The notes beneath the pieces were generated by a model that saw nothing but the letters and a program-made list of their open reading frames with translations, did no database searches and had not been told where the DNA came from. A stretch of DNA of 64,000 nucleotides. It comes from Xanthomonas translucens pv. cerealis. Its GTDB lineage: Bacteria; Pseudomonadota; Gammaproteobacteria; Xanthomonadales; Xanthomonadaceae. Location: the NCBI RefSeq assembly GCF_006838285.1, contig NZ_CP038228.1, positions 3,100,001 through 3,164,000 of the forward strand, written 5' to 3'. This document shows positions 19,028 to 36,406 of the stretch, piece after piece; the stretch's first letter is position 1; every line of letters starts with the position of its first letter. The position numbers and the translations under genes are program-made.

Positions 19028-19278
19028 CCGGGCTTCGGCGATCAACGCGGTGTTGCGCTCGATCGCCGCGCCATCGACTTCGCTCAGGCTGCCCCAGGCA
19101 GGGAACAAGCAGCCGTCCTTGCCGACCAGCACGATCGAGGAATCCTGCGCGGCGGCGGCGCCTGGGCCAGCACCGGCGCGGCGGCAAAGGCGCACAGCAG
19201 GCCAAACCACAGCGCACGGGTATGCACGGGAACAATCGGGGCGACAGCATCGGTCATGGCAGTTGTTTCGGCAGGCAT
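19028..19278 (-). pseudogene. N-terminal remnant of an AlgJ/AlgX-like SGNH acyltransferase
   Basis: It begins at the ATG at 19278, which shares one base with the nfrA stop (TGATG), so it was translationally coupled. A signal peptide (WFGLLCAFAAAPVLAQA) is followed, after a 1-2 nt frameshift in a GCC run near 19150-19160, by DSSIVLVGKDGCLFPAWGSL and AAIERNTALIAEA. The VVGKDGWLF-type segment is the usual start of the mature AlgJ/AlgX/WssI domain. Then the frame breaks off into the adenylating-enzyme remnant. Catalytic SGNH blocks are all missing. The assignment is by short motif and context. Confidence 0.65.
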
Positions 19279-22100
19279 CAGTAGGAGAAGGTGGCGGTAG
19301 CGAACAGGCCCTTGGCGCGCTGGGTATCGCCACCGCCGAGCGCGAAGCGGTATTGCACGCTCAGATCCAGGTAGGACCGCGCCGCGTTGTAGCGGTCCTC
19401 ACGGAACCAGTAGCGCACGCCGACGCCGGGACCGGCGCCGAGCGACCAGCTGCGGTCGGTGTCGGACAAGGCGAACGCCTGCTCGCCGATCAGCGGGTAG
19501 TCGATGCCGCTGACCCGCGAGCGCTGGTCGAGCCAGTCCGCGGCCACCACCAGATACGGATTGAGCACCCAGCGGGTCTGCTCGGCACCGAAGCGGTAGC
19601 TGCGCCCGGCATGCAGTTCCGCGGCGGCGAAGCCTTGCGTGCGGCGCAGGCGGCCATCGGCGTCGCGCAGGGTTTCCACCGCCGCGCCGTTACTGTCCAG
19701 CCGATCCACGCTGAAGCGCGCGCGGTTGTCGTCCCAGCTGTAGCCGGCCTGCGCGTAGCCGCTCAGCGTCCACCACTGGGTCACGTCGGTGCGCACGCCG
19801 GTGCCGTGATAGAAGCCGTAGGTCAGGTACGACAGCCAGCCGCCGGCATGGCCGTCCAGGCGATAGCGCGCCAGCGTGTTGAGTTGCTGTGGCTGGTTGG
19901 AGTCGCGCTGGATGCGGCACTGGATCGCGGCCGCGTCCGGATAGACGCCGCCGCTGCGGATGCCGCTGCCGAGGAACTGGCGGCGCTCGATGCCGGCACT
20001 CAGGCCGGTGCGGCCGAACGCGTAGCGCACGCCGAACGCGCCGACGGTGGAGGGCCAGCCGGCGCTGGAACGCGAGCGGCTCAGGCGCTCGGCACGGGCG
20101 CGCGCGTCCTCTGTCGCTTCGCCGGTGCACGGGTCCACGGCGCGCACGGATTCGAACGTGCCGCCCGCGTCGTACAGCGTGTTGGCCGCGCGCGCATACG
20201 CTTCCAGCGTGCCATGGCGGTTGTTGAGCGCGGCGGGCCGCCAGAACGCCTCCAGGGTGCTGAACACCGAATCGCCGGGGGTGCTGATCGCCGTGCCGCC
20301 CAGGTTGCTCGCGGCCTGGCGCGCGCCGCGGTAGCCGGCCGCGGCGGTGATGCCCCACTCGCGCCCGAGGTTGGCGATCGAACTGCGCGTGGTGTAGCGC
20401 TGCGCCTGATCCAGCGGCAACGCGCTCTGGTCGGCGCGGTCGATCGCGCTGCGCAGCAGCGCCACCGCCTGGGGGTTGTCGCCGTTGGCGGCGCTGGCAT
20501 AGGCCTGGTCGAGCACCACGCTGGGCGGCGCCTTGCCGGTGGCCTCGGCCGCGCGGAAATCGTCGAGCGCCTGCGCCGGTTGCCCGGCGCGCTGCAGTAG
20601 GTAGCCGCGCTGCATGAGCAGCCCGGCATCGGCCGGGCGCTTACCCAAGGCACTGTCCAGGCGCTGCCGCGCCTGCGCGCGCTGCGCGCGGTCGCCGGCG
20701 GCCAGCGCGGTGGTGAGCAGGTTCTGTACGCTGCCGTTGTCCGGGTTCTCCTGCAGCGCGCGCTGCGCTTCGCGGATCGCCTCCTGGTCATCGCGCCGTC
20801 CGTAGGCCGCGTAGGCGCGCTGTGCGGCGCTGCCGCTGCCCTGCAGGTCGGCCGGGGTCAGTTCGCACTGGGTGCCGTAGGGCGTATCGCGGCATTGCTG
20901 GAACGGTGCCGGGTACGTCGCCAGGGTCAGCGACGGCGCCTGGCGCGCGCTGCGCAGCGCCTTCTCGCGCTGGGCGATGGCCTGGCCGAACTGCTCGCGC
21001 GCGGCCTCGTCCGCGCCGGCCAGCGGATCGGCCTGCAACGGCTGCAGCAGGCGCGCGCCACGCGCACGATCGCCTGCGGCGATCGCCGCATCCACCGCCA
21101 GCAGGCGCACGTTGCGTTGCTGCTGCGGATCCAGCCAGTCCTGGCGCAGGGCCGCGTCGAAATCGGCATTGGCCTGTTCGGTATGCAACTGGCGCTGGCG
21201 CAGATACGCGCGCATGACCAGCGCCACGGTGTCTTCGCTGTCGTTGTCCAGCGCCGCATCGGCGCTGGCCTCGGCGGCGGGCAGTCGTTCGTCCAGCAAC
21301 TGCGCGGTCATCAGCAACAGGCGATGCGAGGCCACGTCCGGCGCATACGCCACCGCTTGCCGGGCGTAGCCGGCGGCCGTGGCGAAGTCCTGCTCGATCA
21401 ACGCCTGGTAGCCCTGCTGCGCCGGCTTGACCGCCCGCTGGCGACCCAGCGCCACGCGCTTGGCCTGCAGGTCGGCGACATTCGGCGCGCCCAGCTGAAT
21501 CGCCGCGGCGGCGGCGGCCTCGGCCTGTTCGAACTGCTGCCGGGCCTCCAGCGCAGCCACCCACAGCACCGCCCAGGCGCCCTGCTGCGGCCGCTGACGG
21601 AAGGCCTGTTCGGCCTTGTCCGCGGCCTCGGCCATGCGGTCGTTGTTGTAGGCGTCGTAGGCCTGGGTAGCGAGCGCGAAGGCGCGCCGGTAGGCCTGCT
21701 CGGCGGCGCTCGGATGCGCGCTGGCGCGTGGCGCGGGGGCGCCGGCGGCGCGCGTGGCCGATGCCGCGTTCGCGCCGGCGGCAAGCCGCGGCAATGCCGG
21801 ATCCTGCAGGCCATCGGCGAGCGCACGTCGCGCCTGCGCGCGCGCGTCGTCGCCGCGGCCCAGCTTCTGCAGCGCGTAGATCTGCAACAGGCGCAGCCGC
21901 ACCACGTCCGGGCGCAGCCGCGCCGCTTCGGCGGCCTGGCGGCTGGCCTGCGGGTAATCGCCGCGGGCGTAGGACGCGTAGGCGTCCTCGGCGATGCGGT
22001 AGGCGGCGCCGGCCAACGGCAGTTGCTGTGCGTGCGCGGTGGCGCTGCCCAAGCCGAGCAGGCTCAGGGCGATCATGCTGGAAAGCAAGCGGGTACTCAT
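19278..22100 (-). CDS. nfrA: NfrA-like outer-membrane polysaccharide exporter with TPR-type repeats
   Basis: 940 aa. A signal peptide (about 1-26, ATAHAQ) is followed by a long alpha-helical, alanine-rich region of TPR-like repeats (about 30-560, with AEDAYASYARGDYPQASRQA and AQRAYAAYGRRDDQEAIREA). A C-terminal beta-barrel of about 350 residues ends GLFATATFSY. The C-terminal part (LDLSVQYRFALGGGDTQRAKGLF) matches the NfrA/N4-adsorption-A domain. In E. coli NfrA is the outer-membrane partner of NfrB and part of the N4 phage receptor. It starts with ATG at 22100, overlapping the nfrB stop by 4 bp. Its role here, inferred from the operon, is export and anchoring of the NfrB polymer. Confidence 0.86.
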   Translation of the reverse strand: MSTRLLSSMIALSLLGLGSATAHAQQLPLAGAAYRIAEDAYASYARGDYPQASRQAAEAARLRPDVVRLRLLQIYALQKLGRGDDARAQARRALADGLQDPALPRLAAGANAASATRAAGAPAPRASAHPSAAEQAYRRAFALATQAYDAYNNDRMAEAADKAEQAFRQRPQQGAWAVLWVAALEARQQFEQAEAAAAAAIQLGAPNVADLQAKRVALGRQRAVKPAQQGYQALIEQDFATAAGYARQAVAYAPDVASHRLLLMTAQLLDERLPAAEASADAALDNDSEDTVALVMRAYLRQRQLHTEQANADFDAALRQDWLDPQQQRNVRLLAVDAAIAAGDRARGARLLQPLQADPLAGADEAAREQFGQAIAQREKALRSARQAPSLTLATYPAPFQQCRDTPYGTQCELTPADLQGSGSAAQRAYAAYGRRDDQEAIREAQRALQENPDNGSVQNLLTTALAAGDRAQRAQARQRLDSALGKRPADAGLLMQRGYLLQRAGQPAQALDDFRAAEATGKAPPSVVLDQAYASAANGDNPQAVALLRSAIDRADQSALPLDQAQRYTTRSSIANLGREWGITAAAGYRGARQAASNLGGTAISTPGDSVFSTLEAFWRPAALNNRHGTLEAYARAANTLYDAGGTFESVRAVDPCTGEATEDARARAERLSRSRSSAGWPSTVGAFGVRYAFGRTGLSAGIERRQFLGSGIRSGGVYPDAAAIQCRIQRDSNQPQQLNTLARYRLDGHAGGWLSYLTYGFYHGTGVRTDVTQWWTLSGYAQAGYSWDDNRARFSVDRLDSNGAAVETLRDADGRLRRTQGFAAAELHAGRSYRFGAEQTRWVLNPYLVVAADWLDQRSRVSGIDYPLIGEQAFALSDTDRSWSLGAGPGVGVRYWFREDRYNAARSYLDLSVQYRFALGGGDTQRAKGLFATATFSY

Positions 22101-24241
22101 GTCGGCAACGCTCCGCCGATGCCGCCGTGGGGTTGATTGGCACGGCGATGCTGCTCGCGCACGGCGGCGCTGATCGCCGCCTGGGTGGCGACGCCTTTCT
22201 TCACTAAGTGATCGCCGATGCGGCCGTCGCGTTGCGGCCGGTATCCGTCCAGCACACGCTCGAACTGGTCGCGCGCGATCAGGCGCAGTTCCACCAGCAG
22301 ATCGCCCAGCAGCGGCACCGCGTCGACGCGGTAGCTTTCGCCGCTGATCAGGCGCAGGCCAGCGTTGATTTCGCTTTCGCGCGCGATCGCCTGCCTGAGC
22401 ACGCTCGCGTCCAGGTCGTGCAGCAGCCGCGCCTGCTCGTCTTCGGACAGCGCATTGGACACCGCGACCGCCACTTCGCCGGGCGTGTCCGACGGCAGCG
22501 GCAGCAGCCGCCATTGCACGCAGGCCTGCACCGACAACGGGAACTGTCCGGCCTGCAGATACGCCACGTCGATCGCCGCGCGCGGCAGGTCGCCCTGGAA
22601 GGCGATGGCTTCGGCCAGGGTTTCGTCGTCCAGCCAGCCCTGCGCCACCAGGATCCGGCCCAGCGGTTGCTGGCGTCCGCCCTCCTGCTGCCGCAGCGCC
22701 TGCGCCAGACGCTCGGGCTCGATCGCTTCCCAGGTGGTCAGCAGTTCGCCCAGGCGCCTGCGGGTATGCACCAGCTGCGCGGCGCTGGGGAAATCGTGCA
22801 TGGTCTTGTCCCACACCATGCGCTTGCCGAACAACAGGTGCAGCAGGTACAGCCGCCAGGCGCGTGCGGTGGCCATGAAATTGATCATGTTGCCGACCAC
22901 CATGCGCGGGATCGACATCAGCGCGTGTTCCCAGCCGTACAGACGGTTGACGAAGTAGAAGCGCTGCGCCACGCGCATGGCCAGCGCCGCGGTGGTCAGC
23001 AGCGCCACGTTCATCTGCCAGGTGCCGCTCTGGAAGATGGTCGGGAACTGGGTGGCCCACGTGCCGGCGACCTTGAGCAGCCAGAACAGCAGCAGCTGCA
23101 GGAAGATCAGATAGGCGAAGACGCTGACGAACGAGGTGACGATACCCTTGCGGTCGCGTGCGAGCAGGTACTTGGTCGCCAGCGAACCGCGCCAGCCCAG
23201 CGTTTCCCAACTCTGCAAGCCGATGCCCAGCACCCAGCGCGCCTTCTGACGGTACGAGGCGCGGAAGTTGTCGGGGAAGTATTCGCGCACGCACAGCGCC
23301 ATGTGCAGGGTGCGCTCGCGCACCGGGCCCCAGCCGAACCACGACGGGCGGCGCACGCGGAACTGCACCGGGAAGCGCGCGAAGATCGAGTGCATGCCCA
23401 TCGCCGCCAGGCGCGCGCCGACGTCGTAGTCCTCGGTCAGGCTGTCGGGGTTGAACGGCTGGTTGTCGCTGGCCTGGCTCAGCGCCAGCAGCGCCTTGCG
23501 CGAGAAGCAGGTGCCGACGCCGGCCGACGGCACCATGCCGGACACGCTTTCGCGCACCACCAGGTCCTTGGCGTGCCATTCGGCGAACTCGTCCATGTAC
23601 ACGCCGGCCACCAGCTCGTACCACTCGCGGTCCAGCGAGGTCACCGGCAACTGGATCATGTCCTTGCGCGGCAGCAGGTAATTGAAGAAGCGCAGCTCCA
23701 TCGGGTGCAGCACGTCTTCGCTGTCGTGCAGGACCACGCCGGCGAAGGTGATGTCGTTCTGCTTCTCGTACTCGAAGATCGCCAGCACCAACCAGTTCAG
23801 GCAGTCGGCTTTGCTGGTCGGGCCGTCGTGCGGCACCTCGATGCGGCGCATGCGCTTGTAGCGGCGGCGCATGCGTTCCACTTCGGCGATGGTCTGCGCG
23901 TCGTTGGGATAGGTGCCGACGAAGACCATGTAGTCGTGGTAATCGAGCACGTCGATCATGTTCTCGACCATCTGCCCGATCACGTCGAACTCGGCCCAGG
24001 CCGGCACCATGATCGCCAGGGTCTGTTCCGGGCGCTGCTGCAGGTCCTGCTGGGTCAACGGCCGGTATTCGCTGCGCTGCTTGACGATCGCGCTGCGCCA
24101 CAGTTCGCGCACCCAGTACCAGGCATCGATGAACAGGTCATCGAGGCTGGAGATCAGGATCACCACCGCGACCACCACGGCCGCCGTCTCCAGGAAGGCG
24201 TAGTAATTGGCCAGGTGGATGTTCCAGTACAGGCTGTCCAC
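22097..24241 (-). CDS. nfrB: NfrB-like family-2 glycosyltransferase with C-terminal MshEN-type domain
   Basis: 714 aa from a GTG start at 24241. An N-terminal membrane helix (about 18-32) is followed by a GT2 domain with DSED at 173-176, TED at 269-271 and QKARW at 332-336, the processive-synthase motifs. Several membrane helices follow (about 355-470). From about residue 525 a type-II-secretion-ATPase N-terminal/MshEN-like region begins (LGRILVAQGWLDDETLAEAI). Two tandem motifs, LLGDLLVELRLIARDQFERVL and RIGDHLVKKGVATQAAISAAV, lie at about 640-672. MshEN motifs bind c-di-GMP. E. coli NfrB, of the same layout, makes a glycan from WecB-derived ManNAc under c-di-GMP control. It is translationally coupled to nfrA. 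Confidence 0.9.
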   Translation of the reverse strand: MDSLYWNIHLANYYAFLETAAVVVAVVILISSLDDLFIDAWYWVRELWRSAIVKQRSEYRPLTQQDLQQRPEQTLAIMVPAWAEFDVIGQMVENMIDVLDYHDYMVFVGTYPNDAQTIAEVERMRRRYKRMRRIEVPHDGPTSKADCLNWLVLAIFEYEKQNDITFAGVVLHDSEDVLHPMELRFFNYLLPRKDMIQLPVTSLDREWYELVAGVYMDEFAEWHAKDLVVRESVSGMVPSAGVGTCFSRKALLALSQASDNQPFNPDSLTEDYDVGARLAAMGMHSIFARFPVQFRVRRPSWFGWGPVRERTLHMALCVREYFPDNFRASYRQKARWVLGIGLQSWETLGWRGSLATKYLLARDRKGIVTSFVSVFAYLIFLQLLLFWLLKVAGTWATQFPTIFQSGTWQMNVALLTTAALAMRVAQRFYFVNRLYGWEHALMSIPRMVVGNMINFMATARAWRLYLLHLLFGKRMVWDKTMHDFPSAAQLVHTRRRLGELLTTWEAIEPERLAQALRQQEGGRQQPLGRILVAQGWLDDETLAEAIAFQGDLPRAAIDVAYLQAGQFPLSVQACVQWRLLPLPSDTPGEVAVAVSNALSEDEQARLLHDLDASVLRQAIARESEINAGLRLISGESYRVDAVPLLGDLLVELRLIARDQFERVLDGYRPQRDGRIGDHLVKKGVATQAAISAAVREQHRRANQPHGGIGGALPT

Positions 24242-24247
24242 GAGCGA

Positions 24248-26467
24248 TCAGTTCCCGTTCTGCGCGGCGCGGCGGCGTCGACGGATCTGCACCACGCGCG
24301 CGGCCAGCAGCATGAACGCGATCACCGCCACCAGCACCACCAGCCACACCATGTGCTGCTGCCACAGCGACTGCGGGTTGCTGTGCTCGGCCATGCGCGC
24401 GCCGGTGGGGTCCTGGCCGTCGAAGTCCTGCACCACGCCGCTGGCATCCAGCAGCGCCAGGTTGCCGCGGATCAGCCGGAACGGTTCGGCGATCTGCGGT
24501 CCCTGCGTGCCCAGCTCGCGGTAGATCACCCCGGTGCTGGCGCCGCTGCCGACCACTTCGACCAGGGCAGCGCGGTCGAGTCCGGCCAGGTCCAGCAGCA
24601 CCTGCTTGCCCGGGCCGGACACCACCAGCTTGCCGTCGCGCACCGCCGCGCTCCGCGCCAGCCCCTGCGGCGCCAGCAAGAAGCTGAGGTAGGGACCGGT
24701 CGGCGCGATCGCGGTCTTGGCATCGCCGAGCTTGAGCGAGGCCTGCATCGGCGAGGCGCCGGTCGCGCCGGCGAGATGGATCACCTTGGTCAGCGACGTC
24801 GGCGCGTCCTGCAGCCAACTGCTGGGGACGAACACCTCGTGCGCGCCGGCCAGCTGCGAGGCGGCGCCGACGAAATCGGCCGCCAGGCTGCGATCGGCCA
24901 GGCGGATGTGGCTGCTGGGCAACACCGACACCGGGTAGCCGGTGGCCGGATCGTGACAGTACGGGCGCGCCGGCTGGCGCAGGAAACTGATCCGCACCTG
25001 GTTGCGCGCGGCCAGCGCGAAGCTCGGCACCGTGGCGACCAGCCGCTGCGGCTTGCCGTCGGCGTTTAGCACCTTGGCGCCCAGCAGGTAGTCGTTGAAG
25101 AAGATCGAGGCGACCGCGCCCTGCCCGGCCGGGTTCGGCGCCGCGCTGACGTCGACCACCACTTCGCTGGGCAGGCGCCCCTCGCTGGACAGCGCGCCCA
25201 GGTCGAAGTTCGCGGTGCGGTCGCCGCGCAAGACGATGTCCTGGGTCCCGGCCATGTCGCCGAGGCGGCCTAGCAGCACCACGTCCTTGTCGGCCTGCGG
25301 CAGCAGCGCCGTGCTCACCTGCAGCGCACGGCCAAGCGCATAGGCGCGCCATTGCTGGGTCAACAGACCGGCGACCTTGGCGCCGGCGCCGCTGGCGACC
25401 AGCAGGGTCGGATGCCCGCCGACCAGCGCCACCTGCACCGACGCAGTACCAGCCGGCTGCTCGAACCCTGCCATGTCGGCCTTGCGCCACGCGGCGAACG
25501 CGCTGGCCGCATCGGGCGCGGCGCTGGCGACCTGGGCGCCCAGCGCATCCAGCGCGGCGCGCACGCCGGCGCGCAACGGATCGCTCAGCACCGCCGCGTC
25601 GACCGCGAGCGGACCGCCATCGCGCAGCGACAGCAGCGCGCCGACTTCGGCCAGGCTGCCGATGCGGTGGCTGGCGCTACGATCGGACAAGGCCGCGTAG
25701 GCGGGGATGCCGGCCAGGCTGGCCGGAATCGCCAGCCCGCGCAGGTCCACGCTCGCGCCCACCGCCGGCAGCGCGACCACGTCCACGCGCTTGCCGCCGT
25801 TCTCCAGCGCCGTGCCCACGCGCCAGGCGGTGTCGTAGCTTTGCACGCTGCTGGTGCGGCCCTCCACCAGCAGCCGCACCGTGGCCGGCAACGCGCCCCA
25901 GGCCTTGGCCACGGTGTCGATCGCGCGGCCGTCGAAGCGGTAGCTGAAGCGCGACTCAGGGGACAGCCGCAGCACGTTGGCCGGCGCGCTCTGGTCGGCG
26001 CACCGGTATTCGGAGACCACCGACCACCAGCCCACGCCGAAGCGCACAAAGCCGTTGGGGCGGGCGAACCCATCGATGCCGATCAGCTGGCTGAGATCGC
26101 CCTGGGCATCGGTGATCGAACGCGCCGACACCGGGTCGCCGTCGATCGACAGCAGGCTGGAACTGCGCCCGGGATGCCCGCGCACGTAGCGCGCATCGAC
26201 CTGCAACTGCGCATCGCCAGTAGGCACGCCGGCCGGCACCGGCAGGTAGATCTCGCGCTGGCTTTCCTGGCCGCTGAGTACCAGCGGCTGCTTGAAACCG
26301 AGTTCGCGCAGGGTCATCGAGCGGGTGACCGTGGTGGTCCCGGCCCATTTGCCGAACTGGCCGGCAACGGAGTCGGCGGCAGTGGCAGGCGGCAGCGCGG
26401 TCGCCAGGACCAGGGCCAACGGCAGGACCTGGGGCAAACGTGCGGTAGGACGGCGGGTCTGGGTCAT
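24248..26467 (-). CDS. BcsB-like periplasmic polysaccharide synthase subunit
   Basis: 739 aa. The signal peptide ends near ATAADS. A large beta-rich periplasmic body contains jelly-roll segments typical of BcsB (MTLRELGFKQPLVLSGQESQ; GAVASIFFNDYLLGAKVLNADGK; LARPYCHDPATGYPVSVLPSSHI region). A single C-terminal membrane helix (about 708-728) and a basic tail follow. BcsB guides the nascent glucan from BcsA through the periplasm. Here the partner is NfrB instead, lying 6 bp downstream. It overlaps the wecB stop as ATGA. The BcsB name reflects the fold family only. No cellulose synthase catalytic subunit is present in the window. Confidence 0.8.
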   Translation of the reverse strand: MTQTRRPTARLPQVLPLALVLATALPPATAADSVAGQFGKWAGTTTVTRSMTLRELGFKQPLVLSGQESQREIYLPVPAGVPTGDAQLQVDARYVRGHPGRSSSLLSIDGDPVSARSITDAQGDLSQLIGIDGFARPNGFVRFGVGWWSVVSEYRCADQSAPANVLRLSPESRFSYRFDGRAIDTVAKAWGALPATVRLLVEGRTSSVQSYDTAWRVGTALENGGKRVDVVALPAVGASVDLRGLAIPASLAGIPAYAALSDRSASHRIGSLAEVGALLSLRDGGPLAVDAAVLSDPLRAGVRAALDALGAQVASAAPDAASAFAAWRKADMAGFEQPAGTASVQVALVGGHPTLLVASGAGAKVAGLLTQQWRAYALGRALQVSTALLPQADKDVVLLGRLGDMAGTQDIVLRGDRTANFDLGALSSEGRLPSEVVVDVSAAPNPAGQGAVASIFFNDYLLGAKVLNADGKPQRLVATVPSFALAARNQVRISFLRQPARPYCHDPATGYPVSVLPSSHIRLADRSLAADFVGAASQLAGAHEVFVPSSWLQDAPTSLTKVIHLAGATGASPMQASLKLGDAKTAIAPTGPYLSFLLAPQGLARSAAVRDGKLVVSGPGKQVLLDLAGLDRAALVEVVGSGASTGVIYRELGTQGPQIAEPFRLIRGNLALLDASGVVQDFDGQDPTGARMAEHSNPQSLWQQHMVWLVVLVAVIAFMLLAARVVQIRRRRRAAQNGN

Positions 26468-27648
26468 GGCATCGCTTCTGATAAAAGGGGGAGGTGGGAC
26501 ACCGCCGCGGCACGGCCGGGCACAAAACGGTCGAAGGACTGGCCACGCAGCGCGGCCACGATCCGCGCCGCGGCGCGGCCATCGCCGTAGGGGCTGGCGT
26601 GGGGCAGGAACCGCGCGGGCCGCGCCGGCAGGTCGCAGGCTGCGGCGACCGCAGCCACGATCCGCGCCGGATCGGTGCCGACCAGGGTCACCACCCCGGC
26701 CTGGACCGCTTCGGGGCGCTCGGTGACATCGCGCATCACCAGCACCGGCCGGCCCAGCGCCGGCGCTTCCTCCTGCACGCCGCCGGAATCGGTCAGCACC
26801 ACGTGCGCGCGCTGCATCAGCCGCACGAAGGCGAGGTAGTCCTGTGGCGCGATCAGGTGCACGTTGTCCAGCCCGCGCAACTGCGCGTGGACCGGGCCCT
26901 GCACGTTCGGATTCAGATGCACCGGATAGACGATCTGCAGATCCTGGCGCTGCGCCAGTTCGGCCAGCGCGCGGCAGATATTGGCGAAGCCGTCGCCGAA
27001 ACTTTCGCGGCGATGCCCGGTGACCAGCAGCAACTTGCGCTGCGCATCCAGAAACGGGAACTTCGCATCCACCGTCGCGCGCAGCGCGGCATCGCGCTCG
27101 AGCCGATCGACGGTCAGTTGCAGCGCATCGATCACCGTGTTGCCGGTGACGCTGATGCGGCCGCACAGCTGTTCGCGCTGCAGGTTGTCGCGCGCGCTGG
27201 CGGTGGGCGCGAACAGATGGTCGGCGACCATGTCGATCACCCGCCGGTTCATTTCTTCCGGCCACGGCTGCTGCAGATTGCCGGTGCGCAGGCCCGCTTC
27301 GACGTGGCCGACCGGAATGCGCCGATGGAACGCGGCCAGCGCGGCGGTCATCGCGGTGCTGGTATCGCCGTGCACCAGCACCCGGTCCGGCTGCACCTGC
27401 GCGTACAGGGCATCGAGTTTGGCGAGCAGCCGCGAACACAGGCCGTTGAGGGTCTGCTCGGCTACCATTACATTGAGATCGTGATCCGGCCTGATCGCGA
27501 ACAACGCCATCACCTGATCCAGCATCGCCCGATGCTGCCCAGTGATGCAGACTTGGGAGTCGATGCCAGGCGCAGCGTGCAGCGCGCGGACCAGCGGCCC
27601 CATCTTGATCGCTTCGGGGCGTGTACCAAAAACGCAAAGAACCTTCAC
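26464..27648 (-). CDS. wecB: UDP-N-acetylglucosamine 2-epimerase (non-hydrolysing)
   Basis: 394 aa. It interconverts UDP-GlcNAc and UDP-ManNAc. The motifs are FGTRPEAIKMGPL (residues 6-18), VHGDTSTAMTAALAAF, VGHVEAGLRTGN (about 115-126), the catalytic NRRVIDMVADHLFAPT, LVTGHRRESFG and LTDSGGVQEEAPALGRPVLVMR. I chose the GTG at 27648: it gives the standard WecB N-terminus (VKVLCVFGTRPEA) and has GGAG six bases upstream. An ATG at 27717 would add residues encoded by the promoter. It is the first gene of the nfr operon and supplies the presumed ManNAc donor. This makes it a dedicated copy rather than the enterobacterial-common-antigen one. Confidence 0.95.
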   Translation of the reverse strand: MKVLCVFGTRPEAIKMGPLVRALHAAPGIDSQVCITGQHRAMLDQVMALFAIRPDHDLNVMVAEQTLNGLCSRLLAKLDALYAQVQPDRVLVHGDTSTAMTAALAAFHRRIPVGHVEAGLRTGNLQQPWPEEMNRRVIDMVADHLFAPTASARDNLQREQLCGRISVTGNTVIDALQLTVDRLERDAALRATVDAKFPFLDAQRKLLLVTGHRRESFGDGFANICRALAELAQRQDLQIVYPVHLNPNVQGPVHAQLRGLDNVHLIAPQDYLAFVRLMQRAHVVLTDSGGVQEEAPALGRPVLVMRDVTERPEAVQAGVVTLVGTDPARIVAAVAAACDLPARPARFLPHASPYGDGRAAARIVAALRGQSFDRFVPGRAAAVSHLPLLSEAMP

Positions 27649-27675
27649 CAACCGCTCCAGTGATCGCAAATTAAT

Positions 27676-27691
27676 TGTGATAATCGTCACA
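27676..27691 (-). promoter_or_regulatory. perfect CRP/Clp operator TGTGA-N6-TCACA at the wecB-nfr promoter
   Basis: The 16-mer TGTGATAATCGTCACA is an exact match to the CRP consensus half-sites, also used by Xanthomonas Clp. It is immediately overlapped by a second palindrome, TCACATAATATGTGA, at 27687-27701. The minus-strand -10 candidate TATTAT lies at 27691-27696, with a weak -35 (TTTGTA, 27713-27718, 16-bp spacer). This puts the operator over the start site, about 28 bp before the wecB GTG, a repressor-like position. Confidence 0.75.
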
Positions 27692-29975: not shown

Positions 29976-30049
29976 CCTGCAGGAGCGGCTTCAGCCGCGA
30001 CAGACATCATCCGGCAAGACCAGGTCGCGGCTGAAGCCGCTCCTGCAGG
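29976..30049. repeat. REP-like element, 26-bp perfect inverted arms (CAGGAGCGGCTTCAGCCGCGAC)
   Basis: Arms at 29976-30001 and 30024-30049 are exact reverse complements, separated by 22 bp. The GCAGGAGCGGCTTCAGCCGCGAC core is, from general knowledge, a common intergenic repeat of Xanthomonas and Stenotrophomonas. It fills the spacer between the GH113-like gene and pncB and can terminate or stabilise either transcript. Confidence 0.8.
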
Positions 30050-30054
30050 AAGCG

Positions 30055-31032
30055 TCAGCGCGCCAGCACCGCCTGCGCGGGCTTGTGCTGCACGGTGAAA
30101 TCGCTGTCGTGCGCGCCGCCGGCGTCCGGGTCGGTGTACCAGCACCAGAGCGCGATGCCGGCGATGCGCTGCTCGCCGAGTACCCGGCGCCAATCCTGCA
30201 GCACGTGTGCCTGCAAGGCGGTATCCACCGCGGCGCTGCGTTGCTCGGGACTCTCCCAGGGCGCGGCCAGGCTGCCGCGCGCCGAGCGCAGCCCCAGTTC
30301 CGCCACCCACACCGGACGCCCGCGGCGCGTGCCCAGCGCCTGCGCCCGCGCCGCCGCCGCGCGCATCTGCGTCAAGCGCTGTGCCGGCACCGCCGACAAC
30401 GCCGGATACAGGCTGGTGCCGACGAAATCGAAGCGTTCCCAGTAATCGAACCGCTCGGCCTGCTCCAGGCCATCGGCCACATAGCCGAGCGGACCGCGGT
30501 AGACCTGGCGCACCGCCGCCACCAGCGCCGGCCACTGCGGCGCATCCTGCAGACCGCGCAATTCGGTGCCGACGATCAAGGCCTCGGCGCGCTCGTCGGC
30601 GGCGACCTGCGCCAGCTGCAGCAGCGCGCGCTGGTAGGCGCCGAACCAGGCCGCGCGATCGGCCGGCGCGGCGTCGCCAGCCCAATGTCCCGGAATCCAC
30701 AAATGCACCTTCAGCACCGGCTGCAGGCCGGCCGCGCGCATCTGCCGCAGGCCGGCACGCACCTGCTGCACGCTGCTGTCGCTGCCCAGCACCGGATCGT
30801 CGGACTGCGGCGTGGCCTGCCAGACGAAGGCGACCAGCAGCGCGCGCGCGGCACCGGCATCGGCCAACTGCTGCAGCGAACGCTGCGCCGCGTCGCTGCC
30901 CCACGGCGCCTGCGCCGACACCTTGACGTTAGCGCCCATCCACGGCGCTGCCGCGGGCGTGGCCGCGCCGCAGCCGCACACGCTCATCGCGAACAGCATG
31001 CCCAGCAGCCACCTCAAGGCAATCGACGCCAT
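30055..31032 (-). CDS. GH113-like lipoprotein glycosidase
   Basis: 325 aa. The signal peptide ends in a cysteine-rich lipobox-like stretch (VCGC, about 18-21). The mature part is a TIM barrel: MGANVKVSAQAPWGSD near the start, LKVHLWIPGHWAGD (about 107-120), ALIVGTELRG with Glu157, and VWVAELGLRS with Glu245. The two glutamates at strand ends 4 and 7 fit the acid/base and nucleophile of retaining clan GH-A enzymes such as GH113. A role in trimming or editing the polymer made by the operon is inferred from position. It starts at 31032, overlapping the membrane protein gene by 19 bp, and is the last gene of the operon. Confidence 0.72.
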   Translation of the reverse strand: MASIALRWLLGMLFAMSVCGCGAATPAAAPWMGANVKVSAQAPWGSDAAQRSLQQLADAGAARALLVAFVWQATPQSDDPVLGSDSSVQQVRAGLRQMRAAGLQPVLKVHLWIPGHWAGDAAPADRAAWFGAYQRALLQLAQVAADERAEALIVGTELRGLQDAPQWPALVAAVRQVYRGPLGYVADGLEQAERFDYWERFDFVGTSLYPALSAVPAQRLTQMRAAAARAQALGTRRGRPVWVAELGLRSARGSLAAPWESPEQRSAAVDTALQAHVLQDWRRVLGEQRIAGIALWCWYTDPDAGGAHDSDFTVQHKPAQAVLAR

Positions 31033-32528
31033 ACCCGGTAGGACCCTTGTCGGTAGACCAGACTGTAGCCCGGTAGACCGTGTCGCCACAGCTGCGGCAG
31101 GCGCCGGTTGACGCTGTCCAGCCCCCCGGCCTGGCTGGCCGGATCGGCCACCACCACCTGCGCCGGCATCTGCCGCGAGTCGTCCAGCGCGCGCTTGAAG
31201 CGCGGGTCGAACGGCAGGATCAGGCCCTGCGCATCGCCGCGCGCCACGATCACCGCGTAGCCGGCGCGATCGTCGAGCAGGGTCGGCAGCCGCGCCTCGG
31301 CCAGCCAGGCGCCCAGCCGCGCTTCGTCCGGATGCCGCGGCGCCACCGGCGCGTACAGCGCCGCAGCCCAATCGCGGGTGGTCGACGCGGCGGTCTGGGC
31401 GATGACCCAGCCGCTGGCGACGGCGCCGAGCAGCAGCAACGCCAACGCCGGCCAGCGCAGCGCACGGCGCAGGTCGCCCAGCAGCAACGCCGCCGGCACC
31501 ACCATCAGCGCCAGGAAATCCAGCGGCTGCGCGCTGAAGCGCGCCCATGCCGCCAGCGTGCCGGCACCGATCACGGTGACCGTCGCCACCAGCACGCAGC
31601 GCCAGGTGCTGCTGAGCCGGGTGCGCCGCACCAGCAACAGCAGCGGCGTGGTGACCAGACCGGCCAACGCCAGGTACAGCGGCGGCCACCACGGCCGCGC
31701 CATCGCCTGCTGCAGCCACGGCTGCAGCGCGGCCTGCGCGTAGCTGCCGCGGAACGCCGAATGCTGGTCGCGCACGAACAGCAACGCATCGCCGAAGAAC
31801 AGATAGTTCAGATACATCCAGGTCGCGACCGCGAACAGAAACGGCAGATAGCACACCAGGTAGAACGGCAGCGGCGCGCGCCGCAGCATGCCCTGCGGCG
31901 CGATCAGGCCCAACCACGGCGCCATCGCCATGGCCAGAAAGCAGGCGCGTTCGTCGACGAAGAACAGCAGGCACAGACACAGCGCCAGACGCAGGTAGGC
32001 GAAGGCTTCCGGATCGCCGCGGAGATGGCGCAGCGCGCGGCAGGTCAGATAGAACACCAGCAGGCCCAGACCCTGGTTATTGCCCGACAGCGTCGGCCAC
32101 AGGAAGAACGGCTGCAGCACCAGCGCCGCGCACAGGCCCCAGGCCCAGGCACGGCCCAGGCCCGCGGCGAGGTCGCGCCACAGCAGGGTTAGCAGCGCCG
32201 CGCCGGCAAGCACATCCACCAGGTACGGCAGCAACGGCGTGGACAAGCCCGGCACGCCGCCGATCAGCAGGCCCAGGTACAGCGAGGCCTGCGCGTACAG
32301 GAAGCCCAGGTATTCGGTGCGGAACCCGGCCGCGTCGCGCAACAGCAGCAGCTTGGCGTACTGCGCCATCGCGTCGTCGCTCATGTAGCCGTGCGCGAGC
32401 AAGCGCTGGCACAGCAGCGCCAGCAGTGCCGCGGTGACCACGAACACCGCCACGCCGCGTGGGCGCCGCGGCGTCTCAGTCGTCGAGTGCGGCGCGGCGC
32501 TCTTCGGCCATGTGCTTGCTGATGCCAT
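31014..32528 (-). CDS. multi-spanning membrane protein, possible GT-C-type glycosyltransferase or polymer-modifying enzyme
   Basis: 504 aa with about ten to twelve hydrophobic segments and one larger soluble C-terminal part (from about residue 385). After the first helix comes AHGYMSDDAMAQYAKLLLLRD; an acidic pair directly after helix 1 is typical of GT-C enzymes that use lipid-linked sugars. The C-terminal region (LILPFDPRFKRALDD; GLPGYSLVYRQGSYRVWRRLP) resembles the periplasmic end of such proteins. I do not recognise the family. The ATG at 32528 overlaps the glycosyltransferase gene by 53 bp. A GTG at 32453, with no overlap, would still keep helix 1. Confidence 0.7.
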   Translation of the reverse strand: MASASTWPKSAAPHSTTETPRRPRGVAVFVVTAALLALLCQRLLAHGYMSDDAMAQYAKLLLLRDAAGFRTEYLGFLYAQASLYLGLLIGGVPGLSTPLLPYLVDVLAGAALLTLLWRDLAAGLGRAWAWGLCAALVLQPFFLWPTLSGNNQGLGLLVFYLTCRALRHLRGDPEAFAYLRLALCLCLLFFVDERACFLAMAMAPWLGLIAPQGMLRRAPLPFYLVCYLPFLFAVATWMYLNYLFFGDALLFVRDQHSAFRGSYAQAALQPWLQQAMARPWWPPLYLALAGLVTTPLLLLVRRTRLSSTWRCVLVATVTVIGAGTLAAWARFSAQPLDFLALMVVPAALLLGDLRRALRWPALALLLLGAVASGWVIAQTAASTTRDWAAALYAPVAPRHPDEARLGAWLAEARLPTLLDDRAGYAVIVARGDAQGLILPFDPRFKRALDDSRQMPAQVVVADPASQAGGLDSVNRRLPQLWRHGLPGYSLVYRQGSYRVWRRLP

Positions 32529-34380
32529 GGGTGGTCTTTTCCCAGTAGAACGGATTGTGGATGAGCTGCCACAGGCCCTTGTAGGCAGCGACCGATTGCA
32601 GCAGCCAGTACAGCGGCACGGTCAGCGCGTACGGCGCCAGCCGGAAGTAGTCGCGCTTGAACGCGGCCAGCAAGGTCATATAGATCAGGAAGCCGTTGCC
32701 CAGCAGCAGGTTGAGCATGCTCAGGTACAGCAGCGCGGGCGGGAAGAACGGATTGAACACATGGGTGTCGGTCAGCGCCCAGATGCCGTAGATCAGCCAC
32801 ATCGGCGGGGCGATCAGCGCGGTGAAGAAAGTCCCGCCGACGAAGAACTGGAAGCCCCAGAAGCCGCGGAAGCCGACCGAGCGGTACAGCTGCACCGGAT
32901 CGCGCATGTGCACCAGCCAGGTCTGCATGTAGCCCTTGAGCCAGCGCGAACGCTGCCGGATCCAGTTGGGAATGCTGACGTTGGCTTCCTCGAACGTGGT
33001 CGAGTTGACCACGCTGACCCGGTAGCCCTGCTGGGTCAGGCGCACGCCCAGGTCGGCGTCCTCGGTGACGTTGTACGGGTCCCAGGCGCGCACCTTGCGC
33101 AGGATGTCCAGGCGGAAATGGTTGGAGGTGCCGCCCAGCGGGATCGGAATGCGCAGGGTTTCCAGCGCCGGCAGGTAGAAGTCGAACCACAGCGTGTATT
33201 CCAGCGTGAACATACGCGTGAGCCAGTTCTCGTCGGCGTTGTAGTAGTTCAACCGCGCCTGGATGCAGGCCACGTCGGCCGGCGACTTGCGGAACGCGGC
33301 GACCGCGCGCTTGAGTTGGTCCGGCTCCGGCTTGTCCTCGGCATCGTAGATGGTCAGCATCTGCCCGCGCGCGAACTGCAGCGCGTAGTTGCACGCCTTG
33401 GGCTTGGTCTTGGGCTGCGACGGCGGCACCCGGATGATCTCGAAGAACGCCTCCAGGCCCAGCGCCTTGGCCGCCTCGATGGTCTCGGTGTCGTCGGCCT
33501 CCAGCACCAGCTTCACGTCCAGCTTGGAGGTCGGGTAGTCGAGCCGGCGCAGCGCGTTGGCCAGGATCGGCAACACGTCCGGCTCCTTGTACATCGGCAC
33601 CAGCACCGTATACACGGGCAGGTCCTCGTCGCTGAGCGCGGCCACTTCCGCGTCGGTGACCTTGATCTCGATGCGACGCCGCGCGCCCAGCCAGGCCAGC
33701 GCGAACTTCAGCGCGAACGTGGCCACGAAGGCGATGCCGACCACGCTGTTGATCGCGATCAGGACGGGCACCGGCCAGATCAGCAGGGCCAGCAGCAACA
33801 ACAGCGCCACGGTGCACAGCGACACCACCTGCTTGCGGGTGACCACCTGCTTGGCCGAATGCTCCGGCGCGTGTTCGGCAAGCAGGTTCAGCGCATCGTG
33901 GGTGAGCTGCGCATCGGCCTGCTGCTGCAGGCCCCAGACGATGTCGAACTTGGAGGTGCCGACGAAGCGCACGTCGGCGCCATACGCGCTGCGCGCCCAG
34001 GCGAAGGTCTCCGGGCCGGGATCGGCCACCGCCAGCACCAGCCGGCCCTCTTCCATCCGCCATGGCAGCACCAGGCGCTGCGCGTAGTCGGCCAGCCGCT
34101 CCGGTTCGAACAGCGCCGGGTCGATCGGCTGCTGCAGCAGGTTGACGAAGTTCAGCCCGAAATGCGCCGACAGCACCGTGTAGAAGCGCAGCGCGGTGAC
34201 ACCGCGCTGCGCCAGCACCACGTCGCCCAGGCGCGAACGCCAGCGCGCCTGCAGCGCCAGTGCCTCCTGCAGCTGCGCCGCGTCGATGACGCCGGCTTCG
34301 ACCAGCGCGGTGCCGATCGGGGTCTGCCAGCCGCGCGGCTCGGGCATGCTGCCGAGCGGACCGATCGCCTCGCCAGGCAT
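32476..34380 (-). CDS. family-2 glycosyltransferase with N-terminal MshEN-type domain
   Basis: 634 aa from the ATG at 34380. Residues 20-75 carry two MshEN-type motifs: IGTALVEAGVIDAAQLQEAL, then RLGDVVLAQRGVTALRFYTV. Further T2SS-ATPase-N-like sequence runs to about 135. Two membrane helices (about 183-225) lead into a GT2 domain with EADD (294-297), DAED (346-349), TED (439-441) and QRSRW (476-480), the processive synthase set. Three or more membrane helices follow. It is thus an NfrB-like synthase with the sensor at the opposite end. It should make a polymer in response to c-di-GMP; the substrate is unknown. It lies 35 bp after the outer-membrane gene and overlaps the membrane protein gene. 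Confidence 0.85.
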   Translation of the reverse strand: MPGEAIGPLGSMPEPRGWQTPIGTALVEAGVIDAAQLQEALALQARWRSRLGDVVLAQRGVTALRFYTVLSAHFGLNFVNLLQQPIDPALFEPERLADYAQRLVLPWRMEEGRLVLAVADPGPETFAWARSAYGADVRFVGTSKFDIVWGLQQQADAQLTHDALNLLAEHAPEHSAKQVVTRKQVVSLCTVALLLLLALLIWPVPVLIAINSVVGIAFVATFALKFALAWLGARRRIEIKVTDAEVAALSDEDLPVYTVLVPMYKEPDVLPILANALRRLDYPTSKLDVKLVLEADDTETIEAAKALGLEAFFEIIRVPPSQPKTKPKACNYALQFARGQMLTIYDAEDKPEPDQLKRAVAAFRKSPADVACIQARLNYYNADENWLTRMFTLEYTLWFDFYLPALETLRIPIPLGGTSNHFRLDILRKVRAWDPYNVTEDADLGVRLTQQGYRVSVVNSTTFEEANVSIPNWIRQRSRWLKGYMQTWLVHMRDPVQLYRSVGFRGFWGFQFFVGGTFFTALIAPPMWLIYGIWALTDTHVFNPFFPPALLYLSMLNLLLGNGFLIYMTLLAAFKRDYFRLAPYALTVPLYWLLQSVAAYKGLWQLIHNPFYWEKTTHGISKHMAEERRAALDD

Positions 34381-34415
34381 GCCGAGCGCGGCGGGAGGAT
34401 TCAGCGCCGCCACCG

Positions 34416-35390
34416 TCAGAACCGCCACCAGGCGGCGACGAACGGGCCGCCGGCGCCGCCGGTGTTGCGCCCGGCCACCGGCTGCTGATAGCCGAGCTGC
34501 AATTGGGTGCCGCCGGGCAGCGTATGCAGCAGCGAGGCCTGCAGCTTGGTCAGGTCGTAGTTGTTGCCGCGGATCGGGGTGCTGTCGCCGGGCGCGTAGA
34601 CCGGGTTGGGGCCGTTGCCGTTGCCCAGGCTCTGGATCACGTTGAGTTCGCCGATCAGCATCCAGCGCGGCGCCAGCGCCAGGCCGCTGCTGATGTCCAC
34701 GCGCGCCTCGTCGGCGGAATCGCCGCCGCGCAGGCGCACCGCCGCGCCGAGATCCACATAGCCGTCGAGGTTGCCGGCACGATAACCGCGGCCGAGGCTG
34801 TAGCGCAGTTCGGCGCCGTAGTCGCCCTGCCCCAGCGCCGGATGGTCGCGGTTGTCGGCATCCTGGCGGCTGTAGCCGGGAATCAGCGCCAGCACCTGCA
34901 GCGCGCCCTGCCACGGGCCGTCGCGGCCGTCCGGGTCCAGGCGGTAGCGCAGGCCGATTTCCTGGTCGGCCCAGCCGGTGGTGTGCTGATTGCCGTAGTG
35001 TCTGTCGTTGCGATAGCCGACCTTGCTGAAATAGACGTTGCCAACCAGGGTCAGGTCCGCGCTCAGCGCGTACTCGGCGTACAGGTTCAGTTGGTCCTGG
35101 CGGCTGCGCCCGGCATCGGGGAAATTCTGGTCCTGGCCGTGGCTGTTGTAGACCGCGCCACCGTCGCTATGGCTGGCCTTGAGGATCACCAGCGCGGCGC
35201 CTTCGTCCTGCACCCAGGCACCGGCGCAACAGGGTCCGGCGGCCAAGGCGGCCAGGCCCAGCGCCAATCGCGACAGCGTGCGTGCGCGACGGCCGGGGCG
35301 GTGCCGCGCGCCACCGCTGTTGGCTATGGAAGCGGGTGCCGCGCATACGTGCAACCACGAGCGCGCGCGCTCGGCGTAGGACTGGTTCAT
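34416..35390 (-). CDS. outer-membrane beta-barrel protein of the second polysaccharide operon
   Basis: 324 aa. An unusually long N-terminus (about 38 residues, charged) precedes the hydrophobic export segment LSRLALGLAALAAGPCCAGA. An all-beta body with alternating aromatic residues follows (QLNLYAEYALSADLTLVGNVYFSKVGY; EIGLRYRLDP), ending in ...PFVAAWWRF with a terminal Phe, the usual signature of BAM-assembled barrels. About 12 strands fit. It resembles transporter-type barrels of the phenol-degradation MetA family only loosely. As first gene of the operon it is the presumed exit pore. AGGA lies about 10 bp before the ATG at 35390. A later non-ATG start near the signal peptide is possible. 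Confidence 0.72.
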   Translation of the reverse strand: MNQSYAERARSWLHVCAAPASIANSGGARHRPGRRARTLSRLALGLAALAAGPCCAGAWVQDEGAALVILKASHSDGGAVYNSHGQDQNFPDAGRSRQDQLNLYAEYALSADLTLVGNVYFSKVGYRNDRHYGNQHTTGWADQEIGLRYRLDPDGRDGPWQGALQVLALIPGYSRQDADNRDHPALGQGDYGAELRYSLGRGYRAGNLDGYVDLGAAVRLRGGDSADEARVDISSGLALAPRWMLIGELNVIQSLGNGNGPNPVYAPGDSTPIRGNNYDLTKLQASLLHTLPGGTQLQLGYQQPVAGRNTGGAGGPFVAAWWRF

Positions 35391-35480
35391 CGCAGTTGTT
35401 TCCTGGAGGGGGGCCCCTGAAACAGGGAGCAGGAAACGATTCCGTCGCGGAATCGCGACAGGAACGTAGCACTTTTTCAG

Positions 35481-35496
35481 GGTGATTCACATCACA
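35481..35496 (-). promoter_or_regulatory. near-consensus CRP/Clp site upstream of the second polysaccharide operon
   Basis: On the minus strand TGTGATGTGAATCACC matches TGTGA-N6-TCACA at 9 of 10 half-site positions. Its centre is about 98 bp before the first ATG of the operon. A minus-strand -10-like TACGTT is at 35463-35468. A 7-bp inverted repeat (GATTCCG/CGGAATC) lies in the leader at 35438-35454. The position fits an activator site better than the one at 27676. Confidence 0.6.
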
Positions 35497-35560
35497 CGAT
35501 AACTGAATGCCCATCACGCATGCAGCGTGTCGTAGCGCACGCACCAGCCTGGTGCACGGT

Positions 35561-36406
35561 TCAGCCAGGGCGGCGCCAGCACAAGCGGGCGAAGGTCACC
35601 CAGGCATGCAGCCAGATTACCGCCCACACCGCCGCACGTACCGGCGCAGGGCGTGCAGGCGCCTCGAACTTGCGGAAATAGCGCCACAGCCCGCGATGCT
35701 TGTGCCATTCCACGAACCAGGGCCGCTTGCGGCTGGAGACGCCGCGCACGTGCAGCACGCGCAGGCGGTTGCACACCGCCACCGTGGCCCCGGCCTGGCG
35801 CGCGCGGCGGCACAGGTCCAGGTCCTCGGCATGCAGGCGGTAGCCGGCGTCCCAGCCGCCGATGCGCTCGAACAGCGCCCGCGGCAGCAACATCAGCGCA
35901 CCGGAGATCGCGTCCACGCGCTGCAGCGGCTGCGCCGGATCGGCCGCCAGCGCCAGCCGCGAACCGGCCAGCGGGTGCCGCAGCATCGCGGCGAAGTCCG
36001 GATCGCGGCGGCGCACCGCGGCGTCGGCGCGGCCGTGCTCGTCGATCTGCTCCACGCCGAGCAAGGCATCGCCGAGCGCGGCGACCTGCGCGCGCAGTAG
36101 CGCCAGCGTGTCGGCCTCCACCATCAGGTCCGGATTGACGAACGCCAGCCACGCCGCATCGCTGGCCGCCGCGCCCTGGTTGCAGGCGCTGGCGAAACCG
36201 GGATTGTCGGGGTTGGCGATGAAGCGCACGCGCCGGTCCTCCAGCGCGTGGCGCTGCACGATCGCCAGGGTGTTGTCGCGCGAGGCGTTGTCGACCACGC
36301 GGATCTGCGCGACCTCCGCCGCCGTGCGCAGCCGCTGCAGGCAGGCGTCGATGGTGCTGCCGCTCTCGTAGGTCACCACCACCACGGCCATCTGCTGTTC
36401 GCTCAT
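35561..36406 (-). CDS. family-2 glycosyltransferase (rhamnosyltransferase-like)
   Basis: 281 aa. The GT-A fold begins MAVVVVTYESGSTIDACLQRL, then IRVVDNASRDNTL, FIANPDNPGFASACNQGA with the nucleotide-binding Asp, LAFVNPDLMVEADTL (the D-x-D region NPD), and AISGALMLLPRALFERIGGWDAGYRLHAEDLDLCRRAR with the ED base motif. This is the WsaF/RfbF-like rhamnosyltransferase group, non-processive. A C-terminal amphipathic or membrane-proximal segment (VRAAVWAVIWLHAWVTFARL) ends it. The start is the ATG at 36406. It is separated from the operon downstream by 170 bp and appears to be its own unit, divergent from the APH-like kinase. Confidence 0.87.
   Translation of the reverse strand: MSEQQMAVVVVTYESGSTIDACLQRLRTAAEVAQIRVVDNASRDNTLAIVQRHALEDRRVRFIANPDNPGFASACNQGAAASDAAWLAFVNPDLMVEADTLALLRAQVAALGDALLGVEQIDEHGRADAAVRRRDPDFAAMLRHPLAGSRLALAADPAQPLQRVDAISGALMLLPRALFERIGGWDAGYRLHAEDLDLCRRARQAGATVAVCNRLRVLHVRGVSSRKRPWFVEWHKHRGLWRYFRKFEAPARPAPVRAAVWAVIWLHAWVTFARLCWRRPG

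Follow-up and report, generated by a model that had tools for sequence, protein, structure and literature searches.

The xag operon of Xanthomonas was reportedly first described by Tao et al. in 2010. In its published form the operon has four genes, xagABCD, and an rpfG mutant, whose biofilm is raised, is described as forming less of it once xagA or xagB is deleted (PMC3609779). According to Lu et al. (PMC3528676), Clp represses xagA of X. campestris, whose Clp site reads TGTGA-N6-TCGAT, and c-di-GMP relieves this repression. The same article reports that mutating clp is not enough by itself to bring about aggregation, so that a further c-di-GMP-influenced step is needed, and Roelofs et al. 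predicted a post-translational receptor for xagABC (PMC4624772). Lu et al. also implicate the beta-1,4-mannanase ManA in biofilm dispersal, describe xag as needed for biofilm, and raise together, as open questions, the identities of the Xag polymer and of the substrate of ManA (PMC3528676); these questions are likewise stated as open in a further article (PMC8042644). X. albilineans is reported to lack xagABC (PMC3542200), and in X. fuscans 4834-R xagA is reported to be a pseudogene (PMC3826837).

Two other systems share parts of this design. The sfz/sfb cluster of twisted-stalk iron oxidisers (Mariprofundus, Ferriphaselus; PMC4643136, PMC8250860) contains homologues of xagB, xagC and xagD in the same order, and these are present in M. 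ferrooxydans PV-1 itself (L048), but a BcsB-like gene lies upstream of xagB in place of the XagA barrel in seven of the eight loci tested. The sfz authors read the N-terminus of Sfz2 as EpsE-like and sought c-di-GMP input in other motifs, and they describe sfz clusters that have a gene for phosphomannose isomerase as a neighbour (PMC8250860). The NfrB/NfrA (NGR) system of Escherichia coli likewise combines an outer-membrane barrel with a GT2 synthase that carries an MshEN domain, and E. coli NfrB is described as shown to bind c-di-GMP (PMC8669469). Unlike in xag, however, the MshEN domain of NfrB is C-terminal, NfrA has TPR repeats, and the ManNAc precursor comes from WecB.

The window that we analysed is a stretch of 64,000 nt, bases 3,100,001-3,164,000 of a 4.62-Mb single-contig genome. 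On its minus strand, four closely spaced or overlapping genes lie where an earlier note had placed them: xagA (34416..35390), xagB (32476..34380, with a start at ATG 34380 or alternatively at GTG 34413), xagC (31014..32528) and xagD (30055..31032). The 3′ end of xagB overlaps xagC by 53 nt, and xagC overlaps xagD by 19 nt. A scan of 35380-35600 for sigma-70 promoters and terminators gave no match. Directly 3′ of xagD is a 26-nt perfect inverted repeat (29976-30001 and 30024-30049, with a 22-nt loop), possibly a dispersed repeat or a terminator.

We consider this cluster to be xagABCD from a group-1 Xanthomonas that is a near relative of X. bonasiae, an operon making and exporting a biofilm polysaccharide under c-di-GMP control, and we assign this reading as a whole a probability of about 0.72. 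The identification is based on gene order, on XagB homologues that carry that name, on the Clp-type box 5′ of xagA and on the literature. The earlier note had seen an undescribed-looking device in which a synthase, an exit pore, a membrane protein and a hydrolase serve a c-di-GMP-controlled glycan. Its parts list stands, as does probable c-di-GMP control, but the cluster matches a named exopolysaccharide locus and is not undescribed.

The gene order and the XagB homology are those of xagABCD in X. campestris, X. citri and X. oryzae pv. oryzicola. A scan of genome contigs returned 368 stretches, and among the best 80 loci kept, the order A-B-C-D occurs in 39 (38 tight, one loose), including 30 of 30 Xanthomonas loci; this recurrence indicates that the cluster is not a chance neighbourhood. 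The other layouts among these 80, counted from plus-strand genes only, are B-C-D (nine), B-C-D with a distant downstream barrel relative (two), B-C (three), A-B (five), A-B-D (one) and B alone (21). Two loci (L063 and L064) also carry a barrel relative on the opposite strand, and in another (L026) the contig end cuts xagA. The loose locus, from X. phaseoli pv. phaseoli ATCC 49119 (L010), has about 1.2 kb between xagA and xagB and a short xagC (398 residues), and its xag operon appears interrupted.

In a protein search that scored 7998 candidates, two of the best 120 bear the JGI name "glycosyltransferase XagB" (P0106, 71% identical, and P0118, 68%). A precomputed Pfam MshEN match is present in 116 of these 120 relatives, and P0118 is among the four without one. 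Two other relatives, P0088 (1105 residues, 59% identical) and P0102 (926 residues, 61%, Beggiatoa alba), are possibly synthases fused to further domains. The GT2 proteins of the window and of Xanthomonas bonasiae FX4 share 98% identity, and XagB is present in 15 of 20 genomes of the window's genus. In a tree of 81 XagB sequences, the window groups with four other group-1 Xanthomonas rows, and a supported set joins group-1 and group-2 Xanthomonas, Pseudomonas and Pseudoxanthomonas.

For XagA and XagC, no Pfam family scored above its cut-off and no NCBIfam match was found at E 0.001. In line with the barrel and the membrane protein of the earlier note, structure prediction gives an outer-membrane beta-barrel of 12 predicted strands, a putative exit pore, for XagA, and a mostly helical, polytopic membrane protein for XagC. 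We read the fold matches of XagA solely as a predicted 12-strand channel and do not transfer the substrates of COG4313 or FapF to it. Distant XagA-like barrels (27% identical) were observed at 13389-14255 of L034 and 7480-8367 of L039, downstream of BcsB-type or related xagB-C-D clusters; a BcsB-like protein and a barrel may therefore occur together in some clusters.

The proposal that XagC modifies the glycan can be sharpened to a predicted GT-C fold, although its activity is uncertain. The predicted structure matches the fold of ArnT, a GT-C enzyme, strongly across its whole length, at about 10% identity. An acidic residue in the first outer loop is generally required for the activity of GT-C enzymes. 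The XagC family lacks conserved acids there: D51 and D52 are not conserved across 36 rows, and the stretch that holds them is missing in nine of nine group-2 Xanthomonas rows examined. These losses would fit a non-enzymatic XagC that has the GT-C shape but serves XagB as a scaffold or channel partner, and we give this alternative slightly less than an even chance. The strong ArnT match argues against it, as do an aspartate that is invariant in all 36 rows (D192) and the retention of D51-D52 in five of five group-1 Xanthomonas rows. As a separate observation, XagC of group-2 Xanthomonas (L004-L026, L030, L038, L072) is unusually diverged. The window XagC is 39-45% identical to it over 346-434 aligned residues, versus 46-48% to XagC of Pseudomonas, whereas the window XagB is 74-76% identical to group-2 proteins versus 68-72% to those of Pseudomonas.

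XagB is an MshEN-GT2 polysaccharide synthase. Its catalytic stretch, from D346 to W480, lies at 32941..33345 on the minus strand (residues are counted from ATG 34380). Of the GT2 motifs named in the earlier note, TED and QxxRW (here QRSRW) are present in 81 of 81 aligned rows, but the supposed D-x-D is actually D-x-E-D (D346-A-E348-D349), with D346 and E348 likewise in 81 of 81. The N-terminal MshEN domain that had been proposed scores above the curated cut-offs of two profile libraries (Pfam PF05157, 41.4 bits versus 23.1; NCBIfam NF053729, 43.2 bits versus 38). The motifs expected at residues 20-75 are found as two 24-residue units at 21-44 and 50-73 (34162..34320, minus strand), and their 29-residue spacing matches the published value.

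Loss of the c-di-GMP contacts had been named as a possible objection to this domain. The 12 contact positions of XagB read P, I, G, L, L, Q / R, L, G, F, L, H; eight are identical to the expected residues, and ten are kept when any of LIVMF is permitted at the leucine positions. The two losses are Arg9 to Pro and Gln61 to His, and the position of Gly47 holds Arg. Compared by eye with the relaxed pattern of Wang et al. (PMC5013675), motif I fits and motif II deviates at three positions. Among the 54 XagB proteins of the five xag-type groups, all keep 10-11 of the 12 contacts, and G11, G40, Q32 and R38 are present in every one, but only 3-9 contacts remain in 27 alphaproteobacterial relatives, a set that includes one locus with xagC (L055) and one with xagA and xagD (L080).

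The domain could instead be a relic that has lost c-di-GMP binding, in an operon that is still xagABCD and is controlled only at transcription, via Clp. Consistent with this are the changes R9P, Q61H and G47R, the three deviations of motif II, the description of MshE R9A as defective in c-di-GMP binding (PMC4624772), and the contact losses in the alphaproteobacterial relatives, which indicate that the domain can decay within the XagB family. XpsE of Xanthomonas is, moreover, a described case of lost MshEN binding; however, XpsE is without G11 and G40, and XagB retains both. Against a relic stand the contacts kept throughout the 54 xag-type rows, the relaxed pattern of Wang et al., which permits Pro at position 9, and their isothermal titration results, in which changes of Arg9, Asp12 or Gln32 are described as costing at most about fivefold and those of hydrophobic contacts more than tenfold (PMC5013675). 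We therefore regard the relic as unlikely and the binding of c-di-GMP by the MshEN domain of XagB as likely, judging from the conserved residues. In the open-licence PMC literature we found no article that joins XagB with MshEN.

A variant system for cellulose, PNAG or Nfr (NGR) is a very improbable alternative. XagB resembles the profiles of CelA, PgaC and NfrB weakly, and its scores of 47, 35 and 32 bits fall far under their curated cut-offs of 699, 422 and 1170; the MshEN domain is N-terminal in XagB and C-terminal in NfrB; and in profile scans none of the four proteins matched PilZ, BcsB or PgaA. The four also agree with the earlier statement that none of them is a bcs, pga, alg or pel component.

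The fourth protein, XagD, is lipoprotein-like and was correctly singled out for its GH113-like glutamates. It matches PF22612 at 102.2 bits versus a cut-off of 27, its signal stretch and cysteine were judged by eye, and all 23 aligned rows keep E157 and E245. We take these two residues to be the GH113 catalytic pair. All seven PDB matches of XagD up to E 0.1 are beta-1,4-mannanases; a profile of the XagD family finds the same seven at E 2.5e-35 or better, with two galactanases next at about 2e-4. XagD aligns over most of the domain of the GH113 endo-beta-1,4-mannanases (4cd6, 3civ, 7dv7, 5ylh), and the mannanase chains place a glutamate opposite E157 in three of the four alignments shown (7dvz has Ala) and opposite E245 in all four. 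XagD differs from these enzymes in that the match amounts to only 51 bits and in that it is anchored and encoded with a synthase.

The site upstream of xagA resembles the Clp site of X. campestris xagA. A Clp/CRP-type box, TGTGATGTGAATCACC, lies 5′ of xagA on the minus strand (35496-35481) and fits nine of ten consensus positions; Clp binding to it is predicted. The genome encodes a Clp homologue that matches 3iwz at E 4e-127 (425.9 bits). We take 3iwz to be the CLP of X. campestris. The xagA box of the window and the box published for X. campestris are not identical in sequence. In group-2 Xanthomonas, TGTGA-N6-TCG stands directly 5′ of the xagA frame in 16 of 26 loci and is absent from ten; in four group-1 loci it was not found in the stretch first scanned, and L041 has CGTGATTTGAATCACA at the position aligned to the window's xagA box. 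A site scoring at least 8 of 10 lies upstream in 13 of the 15 genomes of the genus that hold xagB. In seven of the 15, the best site upstream of xagA is a different, weaker sequence with a first half of TGGGA or TGCGA, drawn from about 760-820 nt, in which a score of 8 is not rare.

A second Clp/CRP-type box, at 27676..27691, matches ten of ten consensus positions and lies outside xag, 5′ of wecB-bcsB′-nfrB-nfrA. This adjoining operon (19278-27691, minus strand) encodes WecB, a BcsB-like protein that scores under the Pfam cut-off, NfrB with a C-terminal MshEN domain, and NfrA; it is of the nfr/NGR type and resembles the system described in Achromobacter xylosoxidans (PMC8669472). Operons of this kind are found in eight of 20 genomes of the genus, and in all eight the box of the nfr operon scores 8-10 of 10. 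Random 180-nt stretches of this sequence reach 8 in 21 of 2000 draws, some of which contain the two sites. The exact pattern TGTGA-N6-TCACM occurs at five places genome-wide, two of them the window's boxes, but the pattern was chosen after both had been seen, and its rarity is therefore descriptive and not a test. The other three places are in an atpA-like ORF, in a response-regulator-like ORF (both named by eye) and between ORFs. With one mismatch allowed, 80 and 93 matches are found on the two strands, versus 34 and 38 for the reversed control. Because boxes of this type stand 5′ of both xagA and the neighbouring nfr operon, both MshEN synthase operons of the strain are probably under Clp. 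We found no article joining NfrB with Xanthomonas in the open-licence PMC literature. Elsewhere in the window (52618-54348, minus strand), a T2SS ATPase GspE (TIGR02533, 689 versus 630 bits) has its own Pfam MshEN match.

These features suggest how the xag operon may work. At the inner membrane, XagB, with its GT2 motifs, would polymerise a nucleotide sugar and push the chain out, and c-di-GMP bound at the N-terminal MshEN domain would switch it on. The chain would leave through the predicted barrel XagA; XagC might decorate it from a polyprenyl-phosphate sugar or serve as a structural subunit, and the membrane-anchored hydrolase XagD would trim it, as hydrolases do in other synthase operons. 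In this scheme c-di-GMP would act twice, by removing the repressor Clp from the xagA promoter and by activating the synthase, and the XagB sensor is thus a candidate for the further c-di-GMP step.

A joint reading of this operon and its relatives, which we offer tentatively as less likely than not, is that c-di-GMP gates a synthase whose product, the Xag polymer, may be a glycan of the beta-1,4-mannan type. At the cell this glycan would be trimmed by XagD, and outside it would be digested by secreted ManA. c-di-GMP would act on synthesis and digestion alike, by way of Clp (xag up, manA down) and by activating XagB directly, and Sfz2, the twisted-stalk synthase of iron oxidisers, would be gated by an N-terminal receptor of the same kind. 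The beta-mannan part draws on operon membership and a distant family match; the phosphomannose isomerase gene beside sfz points in the same direction but is not specific.

The xag operon is a known but under-explained system, of which the window cluster is a well-formed member. What is new here is the reading of the XagB sensor, the GT-C fold predicted for XagC, the pointer to mannanases from XagD and a Clp-type box that xag has in common with the neighbouring nfr operon. The MshEN domain of XagB would be the kind of post-translational receptor predicted for xagABC, and an XagB-type MshEN would give the sfz twisted-stalk synthases direct c-di-GMP input. The Clp-type boxes suggest that the two MshEN synthase operons are switched together in this strain. 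The GH113 identity of XagD offers a concrete candidate linkage for the Xag polymer, and a beta-mannan-like polymer, if true, would be one answer to the questions of both the ManA substrate and the Xag polymer.
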